Positions 1-22,445 of a DNA stretch of 22,445 nucleotides are shown here, piece after piece. Where the stretch lies: the IMG/VR virus record IMGVR_UViG_3300050132_000103, positions 1-22,445 of that record. One strand, 5' to 3'. Position numbers and translations under genes: made by a program. The notes under the pieces were generated by a model that was given only the letters and a program-made list of their open reading frames with translations, searched no databases and was not told the origin of the DNA. Position 1 is the stretch's first letter. Every line of letters begins with the position of its first letter. This DNA comes from a virus.

Positions 1-77
1 TGCAGCGTCAATCCTGAACCACCCGCGCTTATGACGCTGGGTACGATTGATACAATATCTGATGCTGGAATACTCAT
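1..77 (-). CDS. Tail sheath protein, DUF3383 family (N-terminus only)
   Basis: Only the first 25 codons lie in the window; the gene continues past base 1. The ATG at 75-77 follows a good ribosome binding site (AAGGAG on the minus strand, 82-87). The N-terminus begins MSIPASDIVSIVPSVISAGG, which matches the usual start of DUF3383 proteins, the contractile tail sheath of many myophages of Proteobacteria. The position just downstream of the neck/tail-terminator gene fits a sheath gene. If the call is right, the phage has a contractile tail. Immediately upstream lies an unusual structured insert (see 91-215) that separates this gene from the otherwise overlapping connector genes. Family assignment rests on the N-terminus and on gene order only. 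Confidence 0.7.
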   Translation of the reverse strand, partial: MSIPASDIVSIVPSVISAGGSGLTL

Positions 78-90
78 GGCAACTCCTTAT

Positions 91-215
91 GGTGAATTAC
101 CTCGCCCTAAAGGACGAGGCTTCTAACTTCAACGGCAACAGCGAGCACAGAGGACTTGCGTCCTTTGCCCCGGCTAACATTGCCTCGGTTAGCAGTACCG
201 GCGATTCCCGCCGCT
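91..215 (-). ncRNA. Omega-RNA-like 3' end of an IS200/IS605 (TnpB) element, nuclease absent
   Basis: Read on the minus strand this stretch is a chain of stems: CGGCG/CGCCG (199-213), GCTAAC/GTTAGC (173-193), AGGAC-GCAA-GTCCT with a GNRA loop (151-164), and a terminal 8-bp stem with loop TTTA (100-119), followed by TTCAC (92-96). The layout GAAG...GCC-hairpin containing CTTTAGG, then TTCAC, is the usual right end of IS200/IS605-type tnpB transposons, where the omega-RNA guide scaffold ends. The minus strand is favoured because the terminal stem has a G-U pair there but a C-A mismatch on plus, and because the GNRA loop exists only on minus. The guide would be the sequence from 91 downwards, covering the sheath ribosome binding site and ATG. 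No tnpB or tnpA gene is in the window. Assignment is by pattern recognition. Confidence 0.6.
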
Positions 216-226
216 ATAAACCTATC
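107..226 (-). pseudogene. Remnant of the tnpB C-terminal coding region
   Basis: Directly after the TAA of the neck gene (227-229), the same frame stays open for 39 codons and ends at TAG (107-109) inside the terminal hairpin. The peptide includes AAGIAGTANRGNVSRGKGRK and ends VEVRSLVL. TnpB proteins of IS200/IS605 elements often end with a similar Gly/Arg-rich, poorly conserved tail and commonly have their stop codon inside this hairpin. There is no start codon or ribosome binding site and no catalytic RuvC part, so this is a fossil or a deliberately minimal RNA-only element, not a gene. The alternative is that the frame is open by chance and only the RNA matters. Confidence 0.45.
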
Positions 227-916
227 TTACATTATCGGATGGATACCCGCAAGTGCCAATGTATCGGCAAATTGCAGCGGTGTGTAAATAACAATATCGG
301 CTTGCAGTACGGCGTCGATAATCCAGCGTTCTTCGACCTGTTGCTCGCCGTTGAAAAATGGTAATTGATTCGGTTCGCTGGCATACAGCGGCGTGACAGT
401 ATATCCCGATGCGATCATTTGATCGTATGCGTAGCCGTCGCGCAGCAACGTGCTCACAATCTGTGCGTTGTCTGCACTGACCGGCCCGTGAATATCAAGC
501 TGGATCGTTATTTTGGTCGGCTGCAATGCGGCTTTTGTGCCGTAGCTCACCGCAGTAATAACGCCAACACCTGTCACCGTGTCGCCCACGTTGAAATATC
601 CGGCAGTGATCGTGCCAATCGTTACGGTCAGGCCCGACACGGAGATGACCGTAGCCGTGCCACCTGTTGTGGCATCGGTCAATATTGCACCCACTGCGGG
701 TACAGTGAGCGTGGCAAATGTCAACACTTCGATATCAACATAGGTGTCGGTATTTTGTGCCAGGCGTTCGCGCAATATTGGGGTCATGGTAACAAAATTC
801 GCGCCGATAGGTTCGGCCACACGATTATCCAGACCACGCACGATTTCAATTCCCGCCGGCAGTATGCCCAGCAAGAATGTCCGCAATACGGTCAAAATTT
901 GAGATTCGGTTATCAT
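227..916 (-). CDS. Neck/tail-terminator protein (gp12-like) with inserted beta-rich module
   Basis: 229 residues from ATG 914-916, which overlaps the stop of the upstream gene by four bases (ATGA). The N-terminal part (LLGILPAGIEIVRGLDNRV, then GANFVTMTPILRERLAQNTDT) and the C-terminal part (QVEERWIIDAVLQADI... and ...ADTLALAGI) resemble the phage neck terminator gp12-like family, which caps the head-tail connector or tail tube. Such proteins are usually about 160-170 residues. The extra length is explained by a Thr/Gly/Val-rich segment at about residues 65-130 (TDATTGGTATVISVSG, TIGTITAGYFNVGDTVTGVG) resembling the repeats of the decoration protein at 4908-6116. It probably projects from the neck. 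Exact role is inferred from family likeness and position. Confidence 0.65.
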   Translation of the reverse strand: MITESQILTVLRTFLLGILPAGIEIVRGLDNRVAEPIGANFVTMTPILRERLAQNTDTYVDIEVLTFATLTVPAVGAILTDATTGGTATVISVSGLTVTIGTITAGYFNVGDTVTGVGVITAVSYGTKAALQPTKITIQLDIHGPVSADNAQIVSTLLRDGYAYDQMIASGYTVTPLYASEPNQLPFFNGEQQVEERWIIDAVLQADIVIYTPLQFADTLALAGIHPIM

Positions 917-1293
917 GGCACTTGACGGACCACCGCCACTTTTACCCATCCATCTTGAAATGCCCAATTTTCCAAAACTTGTACGACGAGCCACACCGAA
1001 CCGTCCGGCAATGTGATCATGTCACCACCCTTACCATCCGGGCGCGATACGCCTTCCCAGTTGCCATTCAGATATATGGCACGCTTCTCACCATTGATAT
1101 TCAGGCCGCTGATTTGCTGGAGGTCGTTATATTGCAGTGATTGAATCTGCGCGGACATTGCGATAGGTGCTGCATACGTGGGCACACGCGAACCATCGCC
1201 GGCAGTGGTATAGCCGGTCGATTTTGAATATGTTGCTGTCACCATCGGATTGACCGCCGCGACGCATACTGAGACTATTCCATTAAGATTCAT
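913..1293 (-). CDS. Conserved phage connector-region protein
   Basis: 126 residues. The ATG at 1291-1293 overlaps the stop of the preceding gene (ATGA), and its own TGA overlaps the next ATG, so it is translationally coupled on both sides. The sequence begins MNLNGIVSVCVAAVNPMVTA, has a mid-region predicting beta strands (AQIQSLQYNDLQQISGLNIN), and a C-terminal half rich in W, G and V (NGNWEGVSRPDGKGGDMITL, GSVWLVVQVLENW). No catalytic motif or membrane segment is visible. It lies between the gp10-like protein and the neck terminator, where head-tail joining or tail-completion proteins are encoded; that role is inferred from position only. Confidence 0.7.
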   Translation of the reverse strand: MNLNGIVSVCVAAVNPMVTATYSKSTGYTTAGDGSRVPTYAAPIAMSAQIQSLQYNDLQQISGLNINGEKRAIYLNGNWEGVSRPDGKGGDMITLPDGSVWLVVQVLENWAFQDGWVKVAVVRQVP

Positions 1294-2864: not shown

Positions 2865-3653
2865 TTACGGCATATCTGGCCAATAGCTATTACTTTTACG
2901 TCTATTTTCAAGCATTGGCAATATTTGTAGATTTGCTATGCAGTGCAGCCCACTGACTATCTTACTTTGCAATGGCACAATATGATCAACTTCGTATCTC
3001 ACATCGGAAGTCAAATTCATAAACTTACATTGCAGGTATATCTCATGTATCTTTTCCTCGTCATTCCATGACGGAGTTGCTTTTAATTTCAAAGCTCTGC
3101 GTTTAGCAGTGTAACCACAATACCGCCCTGGGTTAGAATCGCGCTTTTGCTTGGCTTGTGCCGGTGTCAATTTAGCCCTACGTAAATATCGAATCCGCGA
3201 GCCAGATTTAACTCGTTCGGGATTTTCAGATATCCATCGCTGTTGATTTTTAGCCGAGCGCTCTGAATTATCAATCGCCCATTTTCGTGTTCGTCGGTTG
3301 ATTGTGGCTTTATTCGCAAATCTATATATTTTTGACGACTCGCCAGTGCAAGTTTTACAGTGGGATCGTAACCCATCTTTATGAGATTTCTGCGCACTGA
3401 ACTCGCATGATTCCTTATCAATACCACATTTTGTACATTTTTTGTGAGTTGCTGCGAGTCGCCGTAGCAATTCTTGCTCGGCCAATTCTCGAAGCGCCAC
3501 TTGCTCTTCTGAATTGTAAAACGCCAGCCGCCGTTCTGTTTTTAAATCAGCATTGCATTTTTTACATGCAGCCTGATAATCCGTTCTTGTGCGCGCCTGC
3601 TTATAAAATTCGGTAAACTCTTTTTCAATACCACACTTCGTACATTTTTTCAT
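2865..3653 (-). CDS. HNH homing-type endonuclease with two zinc ribbons
   Basis: 262 residues from ATG 3651-3653, preceded by AGGTG at short spacing; an in-frame TTG 13 codons upstream is less likely. Two similar zinc-ribbon units open the protein: CTKCGIEKEF...CKKC and CTKCGIDKES...CKTC. A basic helical linker follows (KWAIDNSERSAKNQQRW, RIRYLRRAKL), then a C-terminal HNH nuclease: EVDHIVPLQ, VSGLHCIANLQILP, ENRRKSN. This is the layout of free-standing phage HNH endonucleases that cut related phage DNA and spread their own gene. The location between the capsid gene and a structural gene, flanked by stem-loops and non-overlapping spacers unlike the tight neighbours, fits a mobile insertion. 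Its likely target is the allele of a related phage lacking the insert. Confidence 0.85.
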   Translation of the reverse strand: MKKCTKCGIEKEFTEFYKQARTRTDYQAACKKCNADLKTERRLAFYNSEEQVALRELAEQELLRRLAATHKKCTKCGIDKESCEFSAQKSHKDGLRSHCKTCTGESSKIYRFANKATINRRTRKWAIDNSERSAKNQQRWISENPERVKSGSRIRYLRRAKLTPAQAKQKRDSNPGRYCGYTAKRRALKLKATPSWNDEEKIHEIYLQCKFMNLTSDVRYEVDHIVPLQSKIVSGLHCIANLQILPMLENRRKSNSYWPDMP

Positions 3654-3764
3654 ATTACACCTGGTCAAAGGTATCCATTTAAAATGTGGCAAGTTGGTGG
3701 ACTATTCCAACGGTTCGAGGTATCCCTCTAGCCACAGTTGAATCATAACACAATACACATCACA

Positions 3765-13492: not shown

Positions 13493-14179
13493 TCAGAGAC
13501 CGATTGGCTTGGTGCAGCGAAAGCCGATGCGGTCGGCGCGACTGCCGGGCCAGCAGTAGTCGAGACGGAAGACGCCGGCACGCGACTCGGAGTCCCAGTA
13601 GCCACCCCGGATGAGCGCAACGCCAGACCAATCCCATACTTCGTAGTTGCCCATGCCCTTTTCTTCGCTGGGGAACTGCGGCGTGGTGATTGATGGCGAA
13701 TCTTCGGAAAATTCACTTGAGATGATGCCGTTTTCGTCGCCCTGTACGTTGTCGAATATCCACTGATAGACGTTGCCGTTCATGTCGCAGATGCGTTCTC
13801 CGTTGCTTAGGGTGAGCCAGCGCTGCTCGGATGAGTCGGCGGGAACATAATCACCTGGCTGAGCTTCATTCACGGTGTCATCGCGTAATCCCTGGAACAG
13901 TTCGCCTTCACCGACCTTCCCGCCAGTCCAATTGCAATCCTGATTGACTACATCGTGCGCGATGGCCAGCCACTGCAATTCAGTGATTAGCGCAAAGCCG
14001 GCCGCTGCGCACGCCGCCTTGGCTTCCTCGAAGTTGATGCGTACCCATGGCGCGCCTTCGGCGGTGACTGCTGCAAGGCCATCCTCGCTTTTGCTGCAAG
14101 CGTATTGGCCTACCTGAAACGATGGAACTACAGTGCCGTTTGGCAGAGTTACTTCTGGTACGGTGATGAACTTATTCAT
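13493..14179 (-). CDS. DGR-type variable protein, FGE-sulfatase / C-type lectin fold
   Basis: 228 residues. ATG 14177-14179 is chosen because AAAGGAGG precedes it and it overlaps the upstream stop (ATGA); the frame extends 42 codons further without signals. The fold is that of formylglycine-generating-enzyme-like (CLec) proteins: WVRINFEEAKAACAAAGFAL, LITELQWLAIAHDVV, CDMNGNVYQWIFDN, MGNYEVWDWSGVALIRGGYW and the final IGFRCTKP. FGE catalytic chemistry is unlikely. The last 35 residues before the conserved IGFRC have Y, D, S, R, C, W and G at just the places where DGR template repeats encode Asn (AAC/AAT). Such proteins are phage receptor-binding or surface-display proteins diversified by adenine-directed mutagenesis. 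Its own promoter and position beside TerL set it apart from the tail genes. Confidence 0.8.
   Translation of the reverse strand: MNKFITVPEVTLPNGTVVPSFQVGQYACSKSEDGLAAVTAEGAPWVRINFEEAKAACAAAGFALITELQWLAIAHDVVNQDCNWTGGKVGEGELFQGLRDDTVNEAQPGDYVPADSSEQRWLTLSNGERICDMNGNVYQWIFDNVQGDENGIISSEFSEDSPSITTPQFPSEEKGMGNYEVWDWSGVALIRGGYWDSESRAGVFRLDYCWPGSRADRIGFRCTKPIGL
13501..13606 (-). repeat. Putative DGR variable region (VR) with conserved 3' end
   Basis: The stretch encodes GGYWDSESRAGVFRLDYCWP followed by GSRADRIGFRCTKP. Codons at presumed variable places (TAC, GAC, TCC, CGT, CGT, GAC, TAC, TGC, TGG, CGC, GAC, CGC) can all be reached from AAY/AAN codons by changing A only, whereas framework codons (GGC, TGG, GAG, GCC GGC GTC TTC, ATC GGC TTT CGC TGC) match the invariant part of known templates. 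The invariant end (13501-13527) would be the initiation-of-mutagenic-homing site. No second copy (template) was found elsewhere in the window on either strand. Confidence 0.65.
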
Positions 14180-14349
14180 GGTGCCTCCTTTGTGATTGAT
14201 GATTGACTGCGACCTTGCATCCACAGTATTGTCGCACTGACACCGTGCTCGTATGTCTCCCCGTCGAAATGTGTCCCGAGCGTGAATTTTTCTGCATCCG
14301 CGCACCAGTCAAGAACATCCTCAATTTCGCTTTGTGTTGGCACGGCCAT
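14176..14349 (-). CDS. 57-residue protein coupled to the variable protein
   Basis: ATG 14347-14349 follows GGAGG at seven bases; TGA overlaps the start of the variable protein gene (ATGA). The protein begins MAVPTQSEIEDVLDWCADAE and continues KFTLGTHFDGETYEHGVSAT, ILWMQGRSQSS, ending ITKEAP. It is acidic and helical at the N-terminus, with no membrane segment. Its first position after the dedicated promoter and its coupling suggest it works with, or sets the translation level of, the variable protein. It could be a chaperone or partner; no family is recognised. Confidence 0.65.
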   Translation of the reverse strand: MAVPTQSEIEDVLDWCADAEKFTLGTHFDGETYEHGVSATILWMQGRSQSSITKEAP

Positions 14350-18702: not shown

Positions 18703-18957
18703 GGATGCTGCCTGGATGCTGCCTGGATGCTGCCTGGATGCTGCCTGGATGCTGCCTGGATGCTGCCTGGATGCTGCCTGGATGCTGCCTGGATGATGCC
18801 TGGATGCTGCCTGGATGCTGCCTGGATGATGCCTGGATGCTGCCTGGATGCTGCCTGGATGATGCCTGGATGATGCGAGGCTGTGCTGCCAGGATGATGC
18901 GAGGCTGTGCTGCCAGGATGATGCGAGGCTGTGCTGCCAGGATGATGCGAGGCTGTG
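18703..18957. repeat. Compound tandem array: fifteen 11-bp units then 24-bp units
   Basis: Fifteen copies of GGATGCTGCCT (18703-18867). The first eight are identical; then a GGATGATGCCT variant recurs every third copy, giving a 33-bp higher-order period. From 18868 the unit becomes 24 bp (GGATGATGCGAGG followed by CTGTGCTGCCA), with three full copies and a partial one that runs into the stop codon of the small terminase gene (18958-18960). All frames on both strands are open across the array because the unit contains no stop codon, so long Cys- or His-rich frames here are artefacts. Position next to the small terminase gene makes a packaging (pac) or replication site possible. Confidence 0.8.
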
Positions 18958-19398
18958 CTAGCCCTCAATCAACCGGCTGTATGCCTTACTGGCAGCAATT
19001 GGATCATCCCTTGCGCTATCGGGCAGGGCAAGCGGCCCGTTATTGATTTGTACGTTAACGGCAGCGGACGAACCGCCTTTATCTAGCGGCTTGTATCGAT
19101 CATCTATCCAGCCAGCCCTTTTTTCCCAGTGCATCGCCAGATTCTTGGCAGCAGTTGCGTCAATTTCCCCGCTCTTGTAAAGCGCTGATTGCAAAACAGT
19201 TTCTGCATTTTCTATGTACTTATCCGCCAGCGTTTCCCTGATCAATTTCACGCGATTGTCGCGTTCGCTGTCAGCGTGCAAATATCGATCAATCACATCT
19301 TTTGATACGCCATACTCCGCGGCTAACTGTCTGATTGAATAGCCATTTTCAATCTTGTGGAGAATATCTTCGAAAGGGATTAAGTCTAGCACTGCCAT
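18958..19398 (-). CDS. Probable terminase small subunit
   Basis: 146 residues; ATG 19396-19398, without a clear ribosome binding site. An N-terminal helix-turn-helix (DILHKIENGYSIRQLAAEYG, then VSKDVIDRYLHADSE) is followed by a helical oligomerisation part (LADKYIENAETVLQSALYKS, GEIDATAAKNLAMHWEKRAG) ending WIDDRYKPLDKG, the arrangement common in small terminase proteins, which bind the packaging site and recruit TerL. The last 35 residues are flexible. It is the first minus-strand gene after the divergent control region, and its stop codon merges into a tandem repeat array. A transcription regulator with an HTH is the main alternative. Confidence 0.6.
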   Translation of the reverse strand: MAVLDLIPFEDILHKIENGYSIRQLAAEYGVSKDVIDRYLHADSERDNRVKLIRETLADKYIENAETVLQSALYKSGEIDATAAKNLAMHWEKRAGWIDDRYKPLDKGGSSAAVNVQINNGPLALPDSARDDPIAASKAYSRLIEG

Positions 19399-19933
19399 GA
19401 TGAGCTGCCGGAATTGTTGAGATGCTCAATTATGCCGCGAACGGGCAATACTACAGAAATAAATAACAGTGTAGAAAAATAGTTGTTAGCTAAATGACTG
19501 ATTTAATTGATTATTTTTATAGTAAGATACAATACTACAATAAATTACTATACTGTAAAGAATAAATTATATATAATAAAGACATAACACAGTACTATAT
19601 ATCTATTATTTATGAGGAAGATAAATAAGGGAGTATTCAAAAAAAGTGTAGTAATTGAAAAAAGTGTATTAAACGATTAAAAACAGTAGGTTATGATGTA
19701 GTAACGATTGTAGTAGTTCGTAGTATGCTATAAAATGTTTAATAAAAACAATAGGTTATAATTTGCAATACTACACATTAAATCACGCTTCATAATTTTA
19801 AATCACGCTTCATAATTTTAAATCGCGCTTCATAATTTTAAATCACGCTTCATAATTTTAAATCACGCTTCATAATTTTAAATCACGCTTCATAATTTTA
19901 AATCACGCTTCATAATTTATAAGGAAATATAAA
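19399..19933. promoter_or_regulatory. AT-rich divergent control region
   Basis: No gene. This separates the minus-strand late genes from the plus-strand early genes. It contains three exact copies of CAATACTACA (19446-19455, 19530-19539, 19766-19775), related TGTAGTA boxes on the other strand (for example 19647-19657), two near-identical 20-bp direct repeats (19678-19697 and 19743-19762, 18 of 20 matching), a -10 like TATAAT at 19757-19762 within the second of these, an extended -10 like TGCTATAAA near 19727-19735, and the 20-bp iterons at 19781-19920. Together these suggest an early promoter with operators, and possibly a replication origin. Confidence 0.55.
19781..19920. repeat. Seven tandem 20-bp iterons
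   Basis: Seven head-to-tail copies of AATCACGCTTCATAATTTTA, exactly 20 bases each with no spacer. Copy 3 has G for A (AATCGCG) and copy 7 ends TTTAT. The period of about two helical turns puts all copies on the same DNA face. TAAAT and ATTTA flank each unit as an inverted pair. They stop 13 bases before the first early gene and thus lie in its leader or promoter. Likely binding sites for a repressor or a replication initiator; the downstream HTH-containing protein is a candidate binder. Confidence 0.85.
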
Positions 19934-22267: not shown

Positions 22268-22281
22268 TGCTTATTGTGCAC

Positions 22282-22445
22282 GGCCCAGGTCGGCGATGCA
22301 GGCCCAGGTCGGCGATGCAGGCCCAGGTCGGCGATGCAGGCCCAGGTCGGCGATGCAGGCCCAGGTCGGCGATGCAGGCCCAGGTCAGCGATGCAGGCTC
22401 AGGTCAGCGATGCAGGCCCAGGTCGGCGATGCAGGCCCAGGTCAG
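22282..22445. repeat. 19-bp tandem array at the right edge
   Basis: Eight full copies and a partial ninth of GGCCCAGGTCGGCGATGCA, running to the end of the window. Copies 6 and 7 (and the partial copy) have AGCG in place of GGCG, and copy 7 also has GGCTCAGG. No frame makes a convincing protein. It may continue beyond the window. Confidence 0.85.

Follow-up and report, generated by a model that had tools for sequence, protein, structure and literature searches.

The short region between the neck and tail sheath genes of a myovirus carries the guide-RNA end of an IS200/IS605-type tnpB element from which the nuclease gene has been lost. The reading proposed here, taken as a whole, is that an intact omega-RNA scaffold has survived the loss of tnpB and is competent to guide a TnpB protein supplied in trans; a probability of about 0.5 is assigned to it. 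The identity of the element, considered alone, is virtually certain.

The window (the whole stretch of DNA analysed, 22,445 bases) is an entire IMG/VR record and represents a fragment of the phage genome. The nearest relatives of its terminase are found in Bordetella and Burkholderia phages (59%). About 149 bases separate the stop codon of the neck gene from the ATG of the next gene, in which 20 of 24 residues are identical to the N-terminus of a DUF3383 protein from L001 (PF11863). The gene begins at 77, and DUF3383 proteins are tail sheaths. Only 91 bases lie between the element and the contig end; the element is on the strand of the head-tail genes, and the neck-sheath gene order agrees with that of all relatives (Table 1).

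Several other features of the record deserve mention. The major capsid gene is separated from the following head gene by positions 2865-3692 (minus), which encode a protein that looks zinc-finger/HNH-like by eye, has no Pfam match and is possibly a homing endonuclease. The protein encoded at 13493-14305 (minus) has the FGE-sulfatase fold (PF03781) and a C-terminus like that of the variable proteins of diversity-generating retroelements; neither a template repeat nor a reverse transcriptase for it was found in the 22,445-base fragment. Strong short-period tandem arrays (11/33, 24, 20 and 19 bases) occupy 18703-18959, 19778-19918 and 22277-22443, the last of which runs into the contig end.

Table 1. 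Features of the neck-sheath region of the window. Element numbering assigns -1 to the final C of TTCAC (92).
Feature	Position	Strand	Basis
Neck/tail terminator gene	227..994	minus	PF23961
Start of DUF3383 (tail sheath) gene, cut by contig end	1..77	minus	Match to N-terminus of L001 protein
Omega-RNA scaffold and right end (element-derived, -126 to -1)	92..217	minus	R1; left edge by comparison with intact copies
Extent of R1 match	92..222	minus	Covariance model
39-codon open frame, TAG stop, C-terminal TnpB tail	107..226	minus	Alignment with TnpB tails
Stem 1 (214-209 with 203-198), loop GAA 207-205	198..214	minus	Covariation in 5/6 pairs
Outer stem, CTAAC 192-188 with GTTAG 127-123	123..192	minus	Compensatory changes in relatives
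Stem inside outer stem, GGCAAT with GTTGCC	184-179 with 139-134	minus	Compensatory changes in relatives
Hairpin AGGAC-GCAA-GTCCT	151..164	minus	Fold
Terminal hairpin GCCTCGTCC-TTTA-GGGCGAGGT	99..120	minus	Fold; alignment of relatives
UUC of TTCAC, pseudoknot partner of GAA 207-205	94..96	minus	Paired in 18/18 relatives and window
Predicted guide CATAAGGAGTTGCCATGAGT	72..91 (16 nt: 91..76)	minus	DNA following right end

Related right ends were reached from a Klebsiella plasmid through a betaproteobacterial genome to phage-borne TnpBs in IMG/VR. A covariance model, R1, was trained on 18 omega-RNAs from related elements with the window left out; in their alignment (A1) the L191 and L202 stretches are incomplete, and the tnpB of L191 is partial. 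The model finds a single match in the window, on the minus strand only, over its full length (model positions 1-131), with 120.6 bits and E=8e-31. Since this value comes from a model without the window, a chance origin is excluded. The score is on a par with those of intact copies linked to tnpB (42-129 bits), which supports a role as guide in trans. Neither the rest of the window nor any of 17 neck/sheath relatives, all with the empty site, gave a further match. Rfam searches with the window, L208, L180 and L206 found nothing, which shows only that Rfam lacks this omega-RNA subfamily. The right end of a tnpB element claimed by the first-pass annotation is thus recovered by a covariance search with R1, and the curated models of Rfam stay silent. 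Blastn of the element gave no match among phages and, among plasmids, hairpin-sized matches only, one of which is the genuine right end of a Klebsiella tnpB element. Searches with tight DNA patterns for the 3' hairpin returned no or few matches. The candidates L028, L030, L031 and L033 were rejected as copies of the scaffold, being hairpin-only matches with none to R1. In one Desulfobacterales MAG (G003; e.g., L031, L036), dozens of short GAAGCC-TCGTCC-TTTA-GGGCGAGG hairpin matches are scattered, some without an adjacent tnpB, so that many solo right-end-like hairpins occur within a single genome.

The scaffold follows the plan of ISDra2, with stem 1, a GAA-UUC pseudoknot, two long stems, a terminal hairpin and TTCAC (PMC10097598). 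The ISDra2 scaffold extends from -116 to -1, with a pseudoknot between loop bases at -105 to -103 and those at -5 to -3; all sequence 5' of -117 can be deleted with no loss, and the TnpB tail overlapping the scaffold is dispensable (PMC10097598). The chain of minus-strand stems, the CTTTAGG hairpin, the TTCAC and the GNRA loop (GCAA at 159..156) noticed at first pass are all present, and the choice of strand is settled by homology. All helices of the window, including the ISDra2-type pseudoknot, are intact, with no decayed stem. Among 25 pairs the sole non-standard one is 214:198 (G-G), which is also G-G in L202, L203, L241 and L242. Two pairs differ from those of L242, the nearest copy (82% identical), and both are compensated. 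This integrity argues for competence as a guide, and a TnpB of the subfamily is therefore expected to accept the scaffold. In the 18 relatives, RNAalifold predicts 24 pairs, 15 of them with compensatory change; with the pseudoknot included, 94.4% of cells are paired, against 77% in shuffled alignments and 30-51% when slid by 1-3 columns. The scaffold overlaps the 3' end of tnpB: the 39-codon frame, which ends inside the hairpin as annotated, reads DRFIAAGIAGTANRGNVSRGKGRKSSVLAVAVEVRSLVL before its stop, its first three codons being phage DNA and the remainder the TnpB tail that follows the NAA-N-I motif (IAAGIAGTANRGNVSRGKGRKSSVLAVAVEVRSLVL in the window, LAGGAPAAASRGNVSPKPKRNLRSKAVPVEARSLRL in L083, each followed by a stop).

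The nuclease gene itself is missing. No PF07282 was detected in the 22,445-base record, and with the scaffold complete this bears out the claim that only the RNA part has been kept. Homology starts at A217, where intact copies read AATGATAGCGGC and the window TTTATAGCGGC, and the neck stop codon lies 9 bases before this point, leaving no room for a left end like that of the relatives. Lacking tnpB, tnpA and a left end, the sequence is an immobile, 5'-truncated remnant; the nuclease-free element first annotated is thus a truncation rather than a mobile element. As homology begins a few bases 5' of stem 1 (start about -123), almost exactly the minimal scaffold remains, and its closeness to that of ISDra2, where the 5' region is dispensable (PMC10097598), favours the guide reading. 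The lack of a TnpB in the record counts against it, and one may be encoded in the missing part of the phage genome. A non-autonomous, MITE-like mini-element moved by TnpA in trans is very improbable here: L180 and L181 show what could be such a form, but the 9 bases at this junction cannot hold a comparable left end. In those two loci (L180:717-1000, minus, 76 bits; L181:7600-7982, plus, 100 bits) an LE-like hairpin is followed by about 100 nt with a shared CGAAAACCAAG motif, the omega-RNA and the right end, all without tnpB. PF07282 is absent from the 101-kb record of L180, and that of L181 encodes one divergent TnpB. These mini-elements constitute a separate guide-only form that is possibly mobile.

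The empty site, whose existence in related phages had been proposed, is present at the neck/sheath junction of 24 IMG/VR relatives, which mostly show stop codon, RBS and ATG, and in a few cases a short unrelated spacer. Together with the shared strand of element and head-tail genes, it supports the reading as a guide. The neck proteins of these 24 relatives are only 35-56% identical, and the guide is not matched in them; such relatives are too distant to carry a guide match, which weakens the case. The neck protein was found in none of 399 genomes of one order, so no prophage sister exists there. Among the outcomes that the first-pass annotation had named as refuting it, only the lack of a match to a curated model (Rfam) was observed; ends of related elements exist, and relatives have the empty site. 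The RNA fold of 226..86 reaches -57 kcal/mol (z -3.5; 0/200 shuffles equally good). A stable fold placed 12 bases 5' of the sheath RBS might tune sheath translation or mRNA processing independently of TnpB, and its closeness to the RBS agrees with such a cis-acting role. This explanation is nonetheless improbable, as relatives have no comparable conserved structure there and omega-RNA ancestry fully explains the fold.

In TnpB systems the guide is the 16 nt of DNA after the right end of the element (PMC8612924). The predicted guide in the window had been thought to include both the RBS and the ATG of the sheath gene. The RBS (AAGGAG, 88-83) falls within it, and the ATG (77-75) does so with 20 nt (91..72), whereas 16 nt reach only AT. 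A phage search for the guide sequence gave chance-level matches only, which also counts against action in trans. No TAM emerged clearly when left ends of relatives were compared; the TTTAT found at 220-216, where the break lies, is suggestive but falls short of proof. Since phage-encoded TldR guides exist (PMC13418256) and the predicted guide covers a gene start, the RNA could serve a nuclease-dead, TldR-like repressor of the sheath gene, as had been suggested at first pass. This has very little likelihood: a flank-derived guide would miss its own locus, which is preceded by TTCAC instead of a TAM, the record encodes no dead TnpB, and related TnpBs retain their RuvC motifs.

Outside the record, intact TnpB proteins occur next to 80-82% identical scaffolds in phages L202 and L214. 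L214 encodes a full-length TnpB (IDVGL, VEDL and DRDIN; all three Pfam domains) with a scaffold 80% identical, and this partner, like that of L202, makes use in trans more plausible. The same can be said of tnpB-less copies elsewhere, above all L208 (117 bits), whose breakpoint at about -134 lies within 8 bases of that in the window. A second L208 scaffold (31.5 bits) directly follows the first and starts a few bases before a stem-1 hairpin. Both lie downstream of a major capsid gene that is accompanied by a duplicated fragment of itself; at L208:1909-2142 a phage structural operon thus holds a direct tandem of two omega-RNA scaffolds with no tnpB, and the guide of the first is the start of the second. 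The three breakpoints just 5' of stem 1 hint at selection for a minimal RNA, in a small sample for which the window was chosen for this feature. L206 (88 bits), located where a DNA methyltransferase gene ends, also lacks tnpB, and its stem 1 region is replaced. The surroundings of the L206 scaffold contain the motif CAACTGTAATCGGAT(T)AC twice (324-345 and 683-705), and a further occurrence lies near an unrelated hairpin of an archaeal MAG (L030). Four further loci (L193, L203, L205, L241) have kept the full scaffold beside a truncated or internally deleted tnpB. R1 matched nine of 399 genomes of one order at 1e-5, and two of these scored more than 112 bits: G441, where the tnpB beside the scaffold is truncated, and the bacterial genome G555, where the copy, 80-82% identical in its scaffold, is cut by the contig end.

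These copies also feed the most serious competing explanation, namely that the same truncated end was never used and persists as an inert relic because it is short and recent and does no harm where it lies, between stop codon and RBS. Truncated or internally deleted copies are common in these phages and genomes and their breakpoints vary, which speaks against the guide reading as well, and the recurrence of scaffold-only copies is biased because the searches selected for scaffolds. The absence of a TnpB from the record agrees with a relic, and integrity may simply mean recent truncation, the phages compared all being distant from this one. On the other side stand the undecayed state of every stem and the breakpoint just 5' of the minimal scaffold in both the window and L208. 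An inert relic is a substantial possibility, if somewhat short of even odds, and it and homing-like action in trans are about equally likely.

In the proposed reading, a tnpB element of a phage-borne subfamily inserted just upstream of the sheath gene, and a later deletion took its left end and the whole of tnpB, stopping a few bases short of stem 1. This left the complete scaffold and right end with the sheath RBS and ATG as a fixed guide. Read-through transcription could supply the RNA, as we infer from its co-direction with the head-tail genes. A promoter-like TTGGCA-17-GATAAT also lies at 259-231, and its RNA would start near 225; in shuffled sequence, chance alone yields 0.4 such sites. 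A TnpB of the subfamily from a co-infecting phage, a prophage or a host copy would load the RNA and would cleave DNA carrying a TAM and CATAAGGAGTTGCCAT, i.e., relatives without the insert, in a homing-like manner. The occupied site would be immune, its guide being preceded by TTCAC and not by a TAM. Transcription, loading, empty-site cleavage and any benefit are inferred steps.

With the IS200/IS605 tnpB elements of the ISDra2 type and their omega-RNA (reRNA), of which L202, L214, L083 and L242 are the nearest copies, the window shares the scaffold plan, a TnpB tail coded through the scaffold and a flank-derived guide. It differs in having neither tnpB nor left end, in being immobile and in needing a TnpB in trans. 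Standalone omega-RNAs, chromosomal guide RNAs without an adjacent nuclease gene, are known for IscB systems; the window shares this lack but is of TnpB type and lies in a phage tail operon. TldR systems likewise include a phage-carried guide RNA of TnpB lineage, but they encode their own protein and target a host gene, whereas the window encodes no protein and its guide is its own flank (PMC13418256). Phage homing endonuclease genes would be similar if the remnant is active, with the empty site cut and the occupied site protected; the window, however, carries only the guide and not the enzyme. A keyword search of open-access papers found no earlier reports of solo omega-RNAs in phages. It is conceivable, but unlikely, that phages carry recurrent solo omega-RNAs as guide-only selfish or exclusion elements, minimal scaffolds in coding orientation within late operons, which would use the TnpB of a co-infecting phage or a host to cut competitors without the insert. 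If the proposed reading is true, the guide RNA of a TnpB system can persist in phages as an intact module after its nuclease gene is gone, and guides encoded elsewhere could direct the TnpB in a cell. Surveys based on tnpB genes would miss such guides, and the use of omega-RNAs in trans in phage competition becomes testable.
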